This document shows, one piece after another, positions 24,578-55,057 of a DNA stretch of 64,000 nucleotides. The position numbers and the translations under genes were made by a program. Source of the DNA: Fidelibacterota bacterium (GTDB lineage: Bacteria; Pseudomonadota; Alphaproteobacteria; Rhodospirillales; Rhodospirillaceae); NCBI GenBank assembly GCA_947476625.1, contig CANJRA010000006.1:1-64000 (forward strand), read 5' to 3'. The stretch's first letter is position 1. Each line of letters opens with the position of its first letter. The notes below the pieces were generated by a model, which ran no database searches, had not been told where the DNA came from, and saw only the letters and a list, made by a program, of their open reading frames with translations.

Positions 24578-26216
24578 ATGAATACGCCGACCTCCGCACG
24601 CGACCGTTTTGTTGCCTTCGCCTTCTGTTGGGCCGACATCCTTGTCGAGCTGGACACCTCGCGTCAGGTTCTGTTCGCGGTGGGTGCGACCAAGGCGCTG
24701 CTTGGTCTTGGTCCCGAAGGCGTCATCGGCAAGAACTTCATGGATTTGGTTGCGCCGAAAGACCGCATTCTGGTCGATCAGCTTCTGTTTATGACGTCCA
24801 AAAAAGGCCGCATCGATAACGTGACAATTCGCCTGCAGGGCTAAAAGGGCCTTACGGCACCCATGGCCTTCGCCGGCTATATGCAGCCGGATTTGAAAGA
24901 TCACTTCTTCCTGGCGCTGCGCACACAGGCGCACCTCGACGAGAAAGGAGGCACCGAAGAAGGTGTCACGCGCGACAAAGGCACAGGTCTTCTGTCGGGC
25001 GATTCCTTCTCCGAAATGGCCGTCCAGAAGCTGAAAGACAACGGCGCGGAATTGACCCTCGTCAATCTGCCCGGCTTCCAGACCTTCTACCAGACCTTGA
25101 GCGCCGACGAACAGGAAGTCTTGCTCAATACCGTCGGCACCACACTGCGCGCCAATTCACTGGGCGGCGATTCTGCCGGTGAAGTCGGCGACGGTAAATT
25201 CGGTATCGTCCACGAGGCCGGCCTCGACGTAGCGGCCCTCGAAGCGAAGTTGGCCGAAGCCACCAAGGCTTTCGATCCCGCCGGCAAGGGCGTTCAAGTC
25301 CAAGCCGCCACCGTCGAGATGGACATGTCCGGGGTCAACGAGGGCGACCTCGCCAAGGGCCTCGTCTACACGATCAATCATTTCAAGGAGCAGGTCGGCG
25401 ATAAGTTCAACGTCAAGGACATCGCCGCCAACATGGATAACCTGGTCAAGGAAGCCGTGCAGTCCTTGAACAACTTCCGCAACCTGACCTCCGCCAACGA
25501 TTTCCAGGTGGCGTTCCATCCGATTTTGGATGCGCGCACCGGCTCGGTCCACCACTACGAAGCGCTGGTGCGCTTCAACGGCAACTTCGAAGAATCGCCT
25601 TACAAGTACATCACCTTTGCCGAAGAGGCCGGGTTGATCCCCGAGTTCGACATCGCCATGGCGCGCAAATGCGTCGACTGGCCAGCGCAAGAACCGCTCC
25701 GACAAGGTCTCCATCGCCGTCAACATCACCGGCAACTCGGTCGGCAACGATCAGTACAACAACGCGCTGCATGCCATGCTTGATGCCGACACATGGCTGC
25801 GCAACTTCTTGGTCTTCGAAATCACCGAATCCGCGCGCGTCGCCGATCTCACGCAGGCCAACAATTTCGTCCAGGGCCTGCGCAAGAAAGGCTTTCACGT
25901 CTGCCTCGACGACTTCGGCGCCGGGGCTGCCAGCTTCCAATATCTCAGCGTGCTTGAAGTCGATGTCGTCAAGCTCGACGGCAGCGCCGTCAAAAACGCG
26001 CAGACCGCGCCGAAAAGCCGCGCCTTCCTGCGCGCTCTCACCACGCTCTGCAAAACCATGGAAGTCGAGACCATCGCCGAGATGGTCGACAGCAAAGAAG
26101 GCCTTGAATTCGTGCGCGATTGCGGTGTCGAATACGTTCAGGGCTTCTTGTTCGGCAAACCCAATGCCGACCCCTGGAGCTTCATCAAGACGCTCGACCG
26201 CAAATTGTTTGCTTAG
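24578..26216 (+). pseudogene. PAS-EAL signalling protein, broken by a nonsense codon and a frameshift
   Basis: The first part (24578-24844) is PAS-like (WADILVELDTSRQVLFAVGA). It ends at an in-frame TAA at 24842-24844 and resumes in the same frame as KGLTAPMAFAGYMQPD. A degenerate GGDEF-like middle follows. The EAL phosphodiesterase domain starts AFHPILDARTGSVHHYEALV but shifts frame near 25683. From there it continues as QRKNRSDKVSIAVNITGNS through FEITESARV, LDDFGAGAASF, VVKLDGSAV and YVQGFLFGKP to 26216. The catalytic landmarks of cyclic-di-GMP hydrolysis survive, so decay looks recent. Separate short products could in principle be made. Confidence 0.82.
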
Positions 26217-26265
26217 AGCATTTTAGGGAAAAGTGGTTACCGGTTTTCCCGCTAAAAATGCGACC
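26214..26265. repeat. REP-like palindromic repeat, copy 2
   Basis: It begins TAGAGCATTTTAGGGAAAAG and ends AAAAATGCGACC, closely matching the copy at 23681. Here too the first three bases supply the stop codon of the preceding gene (the EAL remnant), and a convergent gene (sufE) ends just after it. Confidence 0.8.
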
Positions 26266-26269
26266 AAAC

Positions 26270-33262: not shown

Positions 33263-35140
<1,878 letters not shown>

Positions 35141-35194
35141 CTAATGGAGATCCGAATTCCGAACGTAGAGGGAAAGGTGGCGAAGCCCGCTATT

Positions 35195-35281
35195 TCCATC
35201 CCTACGCCGGTATCATCCGGATCAGGTTCTAAGGGTTTGCCAAAACGGCCTCTCAGCCCTCAAAACAGGGCACCCCTTGGA
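35195..35281 (-). promoter_or_regulatory. TPP riboswitch (THI element) controlling thiC
   Basis: Reading the minus strand, the THI-box pieces appear in order: GGGGTGCCC, GGGCTGAGAGG, ACCCTTAGAACCTGATCCGG, then TGATACCGGCGTAGGGA. These are the pyrimidine- and pyrophosphate-sensor helices of the aptamer. It ends about 63 nt before the thiC start, room for a ribosome-site sequestering expression platform. Confidence 0.95.
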
Positions 35282-35368
35282 CGAGGCCGCAGTATCGGAC
35301 CTTGCCGCCTTGGGGTCAACGCCCGAGACCGGTTATGCTGGCGCTTTCCACAGATGTGAGGGCGCGCA

Positions 35369-36643
35369 ATGACATCGCAAACCTTATGGCTGGCCTCCGG
35401 CGTCAGAACGCCCTTCGCCAAAGTCGACGGCGCTTTAGCCAAGCGTGACGCCATCTCGCTCTCGGTGCCGGTCGTCCAGGCCATCACCACCGAGAACGCG
35501 GGGATGTAAGGACTAAGACCTGCGTCGAGGGCGATTTCGCGGGCGATATTGCTCCAGTGCAAATTAGGCGCGGCCGTGCCCCAGACGATGAGATCGGGCT
35601 CGTCGTCTTTTTTGAGCGCGCCTGACATGGCCTGCGCCACCAGCATGGTCGGTGTTTTTGCTGCCGCTGAAACCATCGGCAAAACGCCGAACGGTTTGGC
35701 GCTCATTGGCGGTGTCGAAAGCATGAGCGGCATCCAAATCGGCCTCAACCAAAAGCTCTCGACGTGGCTGCGCAAATTCTTTCAGGGCAAGTCCCTCGCG
35801 CAACGCGCCGACATGCTGGCGGACTTGCCGCTGAAAGATGTGAAGCTGCACATTCCCAGCATCACCAACCGCACCACCGGCCTTTCCATGGGCGAGGGCA
35901 CCGAGATCATGTCCAAGACCTGGTCGATCTCACGCGCATCGCAAGACGATCTCGCGTTGCTGACACACCAACGCGCCGTCGCCGCCTGGGACAAAGGCTT
36001 CTTTGCCGATCTGGTGATCCCCGTCGATGGTGTCGCGAAAGACACAATCCCCCGCGCCGACACCACGCGCGAAAAACTCGCCAAGCTGAAACCGGTCTTC
36101 GACACTAGCGCAGCGGGCACGCTCACCGCCGGCAACTCCTCACCGCTCACAGACGGTGCTGCCGGCATTTGGCTCGCCGATGAAGCCGGGCTGAAACGCC
36201 TGCCCGAACATACGCCGCGCGTGCGGCTGGTCGATTGGGAGATGAGCGGCGTCGATATTCTAAAAGACGGCCTGCTCATGGCGCCCGCCTTCGCCATCCC
36301 GCGTCTGCTCGCGCGCCACAACTTGCGCTACGACAGCATCGCCTTGTGGGAAATCCACGAAGCCTTCTCGGCGCAAGTGCTGTGTCACGTCGCGGCGCTC
36401 GAAAGCAAAACCTGGCTGACGGATCGCGTTGGTGTCTCCGCCGACCTGGGCGCGTTCCCGTGGGAGCGCTTCAATCCCAACGGCGGCAGCGTCGCCCTCG
36501 GTCATCCTTTTGGTGCTACAGGCGCGCGCATCCTCAGTCAGACCGTGAAAGAACTGGCCGGCTTCCCGCCGCAAAGCCTCGCCATCGTCAGCATCTGCAC
36601 CGATGGCGGCTTGGGTGCGGTGGTGTTGCTGTCGTCGAGCTAG
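35369..36643 (+). pseudogene. Thiolase (acetyl-CoA C-acyltransferase) split by an internal 142-bp inversion
   Basis: ATG 35369 opens a thiolase N-terminus (TLWLASGVRTPFAKVDGALA) but hits TAA at 35507-35509. The body resumes at 35627 in the same frame (MACATSMVGVFAAAETIGK) and runs to 36643 with IGGVESMSG, TAGNSSPLTDGAAG, IALWEIHEAFSAQVL and PNGGSVALGHPFGATGARIL. The missing stretch is encoded on the opposite strand of 35485-35626 (PDLIVWGTAAPNLHW, SNIAREIALDAGLSPYIPAF). Flipping that segment joins every codon and gives a 424-residue thiolase with catalytic Cys in VVMACATSM. As it stands the gene yields only a 46-residue peptide, or an N-truncated product if an internal start is used. Confidence 0.9.
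35477..35634. repeat. Inverted-repeat-bounded segment inside the thiolase gene
   Basis: CAGGCCAT at 35477-35484 and ATGGCCTG at 35627-35634 are perfect 8-bp inverted repeats flanking 142 bp. The intervening DNA encodes thiolase sense only on the minus strand, so it is inverted relative to its host gene. No recombinase gene lies beside it in the window. Confidence 0.85.
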
Positions 36644-36677: not shown

Positions 36678-37937
36678 TCAATTTGGCGATATTCCACCGC
36701 CGGGCCTTCTTTGGCGGGCATGCGCGACCAGCGCGCGGCGTGCAGCGGCGGCCATCTCGGTATCTATCCCAGCCCGCGGCGCCACACTCACGCCCGCATT
36801 TTCGCGCGCGAATAAATCCAGATGCTCCTGCCACGCTTCCACCGCGCGCACCGCCATGCCGGCGTCGGTGAACGCCGCGACAATGCCGTTGCCGAGGTTA
36901 TGGATCTCGCGGCCCTGAAAGCGCTCCAGCACACCGCCGATGCAAAAATTATGCGCGCGCAAGACACGCAAGCGATCTTCCGGCGTTGTCGCTGTGCCGG
37001 GCGGAACCACGCCCACCGATGTCGCCATAAAGGTCATCGGTTCCGGCGCCTGACAAATACTCTCTTGGATTTTCCACTGCGCCAGCATGTCGATCAGATC
37101 GCCGATGTTCAGAAAACCGTCGTCCTGCAGATGCGCCATGGCCTGATACCCGGCATCGATCGGCCCACGGAAATTCGGCACTTGCGCGAAGGTGTTGGCA
37201 TTAACCGCGAACGCCAACGCCGCGCGTTGCGACAATCCCATGTCGCCCAGCATCGCGACGAGCAATGCCTTGCCCTGCGCCCCCGGTAATGCGTTGCGCC
37301 GCGTCAACTCACCGCATCCGCCTATCACAAATAAATGCAAACAGAATTGCACAAAGAGGTTAGGGGCCTCATCAAAACCAATTGCGGCGGCATTTACGGT
37401 CTGTGTGAACAGCGCCGCGCTGGCATCGTTGTTCACCTGCGTGGCATTGGCGTAACCAACCGGCGCGGGCGGTGCGGCCGTGTCGAACAATCCAGCGGTA
37501 ACATCTGCAGTGGTCGGCGGCGGTGGCGGCGCTTCCTCTGCGTCCTCTGTCAGATGTGACGACGCGGCGTCTGAAAAAATTGGATCAAAAGCCGGCTGTG
37601 TTTCATCCTTACGCCGTTGCGCGCGGCGGCGGTTGAGCGCGGCTGCGGCGCGGGCATCGCGTTCAGCGTCGCGGTGTTCGAAGAATTCCAGCACGACGTA
37701 GGTCGACAACGTAAAAATCAGGAAAATGATCAGCAGCAGTCCGCGAAACTGTTCGCGGTTCAGCTCCATCCCGCTGCGCTTTTCCAGCCACAGGATGACC
37801 AGCGCCATAAGCACGGTGGCCGCTAGGCCACAGGTCAGGGAATTGAGGATCAAGCGCACAAGGCGCGCGACCACGCGGCGGTGCGCGTCAGTCTCGGCGG
37901 CTTCGGATTCGTCCTTGATCACGGCACGCACCAACAA
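36678..37937 (-). CDS. Membrane-anchored protein with degenerate cyclase-like C-terminus, probable late frameshift
   Basis: About 419 residues. Two N-terminal membrane helices (LILNSLTCGLAATVLMALVI and GLLLIIFLIFTLSTYVVLEF) precede a basic stretch, an acidic/proline-rich linker and a soluble domain. Its end, FQGREIHNLGNGIVAAFTDA plus GMAVRAVEAWQEHL, resembles class III nucleotide cyclases but is incomplete. The last codons (AGA AGG GGA ATA) are unlike local usage. In the next frame MPAKEGPAVEYRQIETMAEA continues with normal codons to a stop at 36656. A one-base slip in the CGCCGCGCGC run near 36728 is therefore likely. The start is uncertain (TTG 37937 or GTG 37931/37922). Confidence 0.6.
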   Translation of the reverse strand: MLVRAVIKDESEAAETDAHRRVVARLVRLILNSLTCGLAATVLMALVILWLEKRSGMELNREQFRGLLLIIFLIFTLSTYVVLEFFEHRDAERDARAAAALNRRRAQRRKDETQPAFDPIFSDAASSHLTEDAEEAPPPPPTTADVTAGLFDTAAPPAPVGYANATQVNNDASAALFTQTVNAAAIGFDEAPNLFVQFCLHLFVIGGCGELTRRNALPGAQGKALLVAMLGDMGLSQRAALAFAVNANTFAQVPNFRGPIDAGYQAMAHLQDDGFLNIGDLIDMLAQWKIQESICQAPEPMTFMATSVGVVPPGTATTPEDRLRVLRAHNFCIGGVLERFQGREIHNLGNGIVAAFTDAGMAVRAVEAWQEHLDLFARENAGVSVAPRAGIDTEMAAAARRALVAHARQRRPGGGISPN

Positions 37938-55004: not shown

Positions 55005-55037
55005 AAAGCGCAGTCCGTATAAAGCGGACTGCGCTTT
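55005..55037. terminator. Bidirectional terminator between DUF3016 and doxX genes
   Basis: AAAGCGCAGTCCG and CGGACTGCGCTTT pair perfectly (13 bp, 7-nt loop) with an A-tract before and TTTTGTTTTG after, so it can serve both convergent genes. Confidence 0.88.
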
Positions 55038-55057
55038 TGTTTTGTGCGGCTAGCTTC

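Follow-up and report, generated by a model that had tools for sequence, protein, structure and literature searches.

Phase switches of the fim, Mpi and Hin/Gin type turn over a segment between short inverted repeats; they rely on a dedicated recombinase and conserved sites, and they mostly move promoters or surface genes. Invertons that lie inside genes reportedly include examples in metabolic genes such as thiC, and both of their orientations are said to have been seen in reads. Intragenic inversions of this kind have been published for bacteria (Chanin et al. 2024, as cited in PMC11868660 and PMC13343947), and PMC11892184 gives invertons repeats of 10-40 bases. Microinversions made by polymerase template switching also reverse a spacer exactly, with no net gain or loss, as described in PMC5218489, PMC8755829 and PMC8604942. 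The first of these describes PCR polymerases that make single- and double-switch inversions at a lacZ repeat ('Inversion 2') with a stem of 10 and a loop of 129. The second describes primate microinversions that abut inverted repeats, 50% of them with arms of 4-8 bases; the inversions are 17-33 bases long, and its authors favour break-induced replication for many of them. The third describes spacer inversions within yeast genes.

Here we describe a thiolase gene that has been interrupted, in a bacterial genome assembly, by an exact internal reversal. The window, by which we mean the whole 64,000-base stretch of DNA that was analysed, is contig C6:1-64000 of genome G000, a draft of 2,616,184 bases in 50 contigs that is listed as 100% complete with 0.48% contamination. 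Like the intragenic invertons, this inversion lies wholly within a coding sequence, between inverted repeats, and changes the content of the frame; like the fim, Mpi and Hin/Gin-type switches, it involves a segment between short inverted repeats; and like the template-switch microinversions, it reverses a spacer exactly. Its geometry, with arms of 8 bases and a spacer of 142, is near that of the lacZ inversion. In contrast to the published microinversions, which arose in vitro in the lacZ cases and are far shorter than 142 bases in the primate cases, the reversal here sits in an assembled bacterial genome and inactivates a gene. Unlike the intragenic invertons, it is known in one orientation, from the assembly, and its arms fall below the range given for invertons. 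The features of the locus are collected in Table 1.

Table 1. Features of the thiolase locus, in window coordinates
Feature	Position	Strand	Remark
Thiolase gene	35369-36643	+	between thiC/TPP riboswitch and ORF 36678-37937
Thiolase 5' part: ATG, codons 1-38, plus bases 1-2 of codon 39	35369-35484	+	matches orthologue N-termini
Left inverted-repeat arm CAGGCCAT, codons Q-A-M (residues 37-39)	35477-35484	+	
Reversed 142-base piece; minus strand encodes thiolase residues 39-86	35485-35626	-	
In-frame TAA arising from the reversal	35507-35509	+	
Right inverted-repeat arm ATGGCCTG, codons M-A-C (residues 87-89)	35627-35634	+	
Thiolase 3' part, in frame with the 5' part	35627-36643	+	
Residual ORF, 364 aa from TTG, without the native N-terminal part	35549-36643	+	
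thiC, divergent neighbour	33263-35131	-	NF006763, 1059 bits (cut-off 650)
TPP riboswitch upstream of thiC	35182-35287	-	82.9 bits (gathering 54.3)
ORF without clear family	36678-37937	-	no match in Pfam

As assembled, the thiolase frame meets one stop, the TAA, after 46 codons. Reverse-complementing the piece between the arms gives 424 codons without a stop, and the turned-round protein matches the thiolase family TIGR01930 over its whole length with 315 bits (cut-off 240.55), where the residual ORF alone scores 262 bits. It also matches PF00108 (144.2 bits) and PF02803 (94.4 bits). The thiolase is FadI-like, the top raw scores being those of NF006740 and NF006516, each under its own cut-off. 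An exhaustive trial of inversions gave 13,238 that leave the frame open and is therefore unspecific, so that the open frame alone proves little; it is the agreement with orthologues that does. In a DNA comparison, positions 35466-35645 align to the opposite strand of the relative G016 at 81% over 180 bases, with the flanks matching forward, and the G016 protein finds the piece reversed by tblastn with E = 3e-25. Judged by this alignment, the reversed match is far beyond chance. A reading of this DNA made from its letters alone (the sequence-only reading) had put codons 1-38 and, in the same frame, everything from 35627 on the plus strand, the missing piece on the minus strand between them, and a perfect inverted repeat at the borders, and had proposed that flipping the piece restores an uninterrupted thiolase. 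Coordinates and orthologue N-termini, the opposite-strand alignment, the arms themselves and the family match agree with it on all of these points.

The arms, CAGGCCAT on the left and ATGGCCTG on the right, form a perfect 8-base inverted repeat. Such a repeat is not in itself beyond chance: counting the members of longer repeats singly, the window holds 1,078 inverted 8-mer pairs at spacings of 50-500 bases, and 21 of them lie within the thiolase gene. The coincidence of both break points with the arms of a single pair, by contrast, is not chance, and it marks this pair as the likely site of the event. Since the arms are identical, the breaks could lie anywhere within them, with 142 to 158 bases inverted and the same product in every case.

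To get an evolutionary perspective on the reversal, we compared the gene across 61 genomes, G000 and 60 relatives. Some DNA match was present in 27, and a long orthologous match in 15 genomes other than G000, 14 of the same genus and one (G020) of the same family. This count includes G005, a frameshifted copy in which a single frame covers just the latter two thirds of the piece and which is absent from the codon alignment of 14 orthologues, and it leaves out a second, partial match in G007 (L032, residues 296-424 only). A collection of viral contigs yielded no relative. The sequence-only reading had proposed the orientation in orthologues as a check, and the answer is uniform: all 15, which come from other species than G000, carry the intact orientation, with the residues of the piece on the gene's own strand. 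The reversal is therefore derived and arose in the G000 lineage, and the reversed order is seen only in G000. In a tree of thiC from seven genomes, G000 joins G016 (95/95), whose thiolase is intact.

Given these orthologues, we consider it scarcely credible that the reversed arrangement is functional as it stands, with either the residual ORF or read-through of the TAA yielding a working variant protein. The residual ORF is indeed open and in the thiolase frame; it retains Thiolase_N positions 82-259, Thiolase_C and the MACATS motif, whose cysteine, the C of the right-arm M-A-C, is presumably the catalytic residue. Against this, it lacks the Thiolase_N positions before 82, residues 39-86 are conserved and in normal orientation in 15/15 orthologues, and the sequence comparison offers no support for expression or selection of a new form.

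The same alignment speaks to the nature of the arms. They are perfect in three of the 14 aligned orthologues (L006, L007 and L013), with the same 142-base span and an intact gene in all three, and in the remaining 11 they match at 5 to 7 of the 8 bases; the inner span is 142 in 12 of the 14, and 130 and 139 in the other two. We also considered an extended inverted repeat that might serve as a recombinase site. It matches at 15 of 20 bases, but its outer 12 bases contribute only 7 matches, a count within the 5 to 9 of the 14 relatives, and we rejected it. The arms appear to be ordinary codons of conserved residues, with no site visible that would be kept for its own sake.

These observations bear on the proposal of the sequence-only reading that the locus is a reversible ON/OFF switch, an intragenic inverton, with a site-specific recombinase turning over the 142 bases that the arms enclose. 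The clean reversal with an arm at each border would fit such a switch, and reversible switching would also explain why the frame has not decayed further. The genome does encode tyrosine and serine recombinases, as that reading had thought worth looking for. A Pfam search of G000 found two proteins over the cut-off of PF00239, both large serine recombinases (contigs C34 and C28), and six over that of PF00589, tyrosine recombinases on C5, C1, C20, C34, C49 and C9; among NCBIfam models, the C5 protein passes XerD, and the C1 protein is best matched by XerC, under its cut-off. Nor are arms of 8 bases impossibly short, as fimS works with 9-base arms. Yet none of the eight recombinases lies within the window and none reaches the cut-off of an invertase model in NCBIfam (best 55.6 bits of 222, and 27.4 of 272); neither the cognate invertase that usually lies near an inverton nor a dedicated recombinase with a conserved site, as in the fim, Mpi and Hin/Gin-type systems, was found for the thiolase inversion. 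A distant or promiscuous recombinase, for instance one of the Xer type, may still act on arms of 8 bases. The perfect arms fall short of the repeats that act as recombinase sites in invertons, they are codons of conserved residues and vary in most orthologues, the three orthologues that share them are all intact, no second inverted site was found in about 413 kb, and other species have lost the gene or carry damaged copies. We therefore judge the switch very improbable. In its most specific form, a metabolic-enzyme switch with 8-base arms embedded in codons, flipped by a general recombinase of the Xer type or from a mobile element, in a thiolase that the genus has repeatedly dispensed with, it would in our estimate face long odds indeed. 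The further suggestion that an inversion switch of a metabolic enzyme would be new was too strong, as intragenic inversions in bacteria are already published; even a true switch at this locus would not be a new kind.

We searched for further inversions by comparing 685,661 bases of G000 with 798,475 bases of G016 and G015, of which 412,849 bases aligned. The scan recovered the thiolase inversion against both relatives and found no second one in the roughly 413 kb aligned. Its sensitivity, measured on simulated inversions in contig C1, was 35/40 at 70 bases, 39/40 at 100, 39/40 at 142 and 40/40 at 300, and a control comparison of G015 with G016 (65,121 bases) gave 0 inversions. A 39-base hit at 55005-55043 was rejected as a second inversion, being a self-complementary, terminator-like hairpin. 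At the protein level, a reversed piece occurred in 1 of 332 compared genes, and in 0 of 317 in the reverse direction. The event is single within the quarter or so of the genome that was scanned, and for inversions of some 70 bases upwards.

The same comparison recorded other lesions. G000 has 17 lesion rows against G016 in 332 genes, and the reverse comparison has 8 in 317; the 17 are an upper guide, as several look like antisense ORFs or share one gene. G000 thus has somewhat more broken genes than G016, whether by decay or by sequence error. Two adjoining genes at G000:C6:106721-107947 (L124), which by eye we take to be transporter-like, are disrupted by a frameshift and a stop when set against G016, and about 2 kb at G000:C1:167347-169427 (L061) holds three lesion rows against G016, one frameshift and two stops. 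Within the window, a gene at 24863-26218, presumably EAL-like judging by eye, has a frameshift near 25684 and is 88% and 93% similar to its G016 counterpart on the two sides. At 26211-26268 lies an intergenic repeat with the form of an imperfect palindrome; the 685,661 bases of G000 that were compared contain 4 copies of it, and relatives give many matches.

The exact reversal is real in the assembly, and the gene is most likely a young pseudogene. In our view the best explanation, to which we give a probability of about three in four, is a microinversion that happened once, recently and outside any programme, when a polymerase switched templates at an inverted repeat present by chance. The polymerase would have switched strand at the 8-base repeat, the new end would have paired with the other arm, and the 142-base spacer would have been copied backwards from the other strand before the polymerase switched back, two template switches in total; break-induced replication at the arms would be an alternative route with the same outcome. 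The reversal puts a TAA after codon 46 and takes residues 39-86 out of the reading frame, which would leave the thiolase of the assembled genome a young pseudogene. The spacer is exactly reversed, its borders lie on inverted repeats and nothing is gained or lost; the change is derived, specific to one lineage (15/15 orthologues intact) and, with 1 of 332 genes affected, single. The route by template switching is suggested by this geometry and by its likeness to the in vitro inversions described in PMC5218489. The change is presumably fixed or common in the population, which may also be mixed, and is probably not reversed by any enzyme.

Because template switching also happens in the tube, the main rival to this reading is an artefact, in which the true gene is intact and the reversed form comes from a double-switch molecule made during library preparation or PCR, or from an error in the draft consensus. 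In PMC5218489, double-switch reads reach 0.16-0.18% with one polymerase, and PMC10908179 describes chimeric reads that arise at inverted repeats when DNA has been sonicated. The assembly is a draft of 50 contigs, its lesion rows are about twice those of the reverse comparison and could partly be sequence error, and the reversed piece is not clearly decayed. Set against this, the published frequencies amount to few of the reads, but both junctions are present in the consensus here; a repeat of 8 bases is probably too short to mislead an assembler by itself; a systematic error would be expected to produce more than the one inversion found in about 413 kb; and relatives have lost or damaged the gene in other ways, so that a true loss is plausible. 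We regard an artefact as unlikely.

The sequence-only reading had taken the lack of decay to mean that the flip is very recent or reversible. Between G000 and six relatives, raw pN/pS within the reversed piece is 0.19-0.31, based on 44-48 codons, and to the right of it 0.20-0.30; between relatives (five pairs) it is 0.09-0.22 within the piece. The G000 values within the piece are slightly above those between relatives, which counts against an undecayed piece, but residues private to G000 show no clear excess, with 1 of 25 within the piece and 4 of 228 outside. The reversed piece thus appears to show no clear relaxation. The inversion would then be young relative to the divergence of the species, unless the gene is still in use in the other orientation. 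Of the two readings offered earlier, a recent flip is in keeping with the absence of clear relaxation, and a reversible one fares poorly on the features of a switch.

Under the preferred reading of a microinversion, the fate of the gene in relatives is of interest. In G010 (97% complete), thiC and the helicase that in G000 lies beyond the thiolase are joined on one contig, and both the thiolase and the next ORF are missing between them. In G009 (also 97%), about 30 thiolase codons are left, followed by a 180-base end of a multicopy element at the end of a contig (L134 1-180, G009:C34), and the search for further orthologous sequence gave no stretch longer than 28 bases. This element is present several times in G009, G000, G011 and G016, and once in G010. 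The 53-residue fragment next to the start of the G009 thiolase has no Pfam match, so that only copy number and contig ends speak for an IS element. The G005 gene lacks one base in a run of G after codon 54, a frameshift that could be sequence error. Neither G017 nor G018 gave a match, in genomes that are 76% and 89% complete. By comparative sequence evidence, then, the thiolase appears dispensable in the genus, having been lost or damaged in G010, G009 and G005. Such other routes of loss make a true loss in G000 plausible, and the inversion would have been tolerated because the gene is dispensable. G000 itself has six PF00108 matches, strong on C7, C14, C2 and C6, borderline on C8 and under the cut-off on C1, and the one on C14 (L131, G000:C14:31740-32513, minus strand) has an in-frame TAA at a position that encodes Q in the copy of G010.

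A reversible inversion, if that is what this is, would extend the known range of intragenic inversion to a beta-oxidation-type enzyme and to arms of very short length. Most likely, a bacterial gene was here inactivated by a single, exact microinversion at an inverted repeat present by chance, and the case is a clear one, seen before the gene could decay further; relatives have lost the same gene or carry it damaged, through a deletion, an inserted element or a frameshift. The locus is also a caution: a segment cleanly turned round inside a gene, with short repeats at its ends, is on its own no sign of phase variation.
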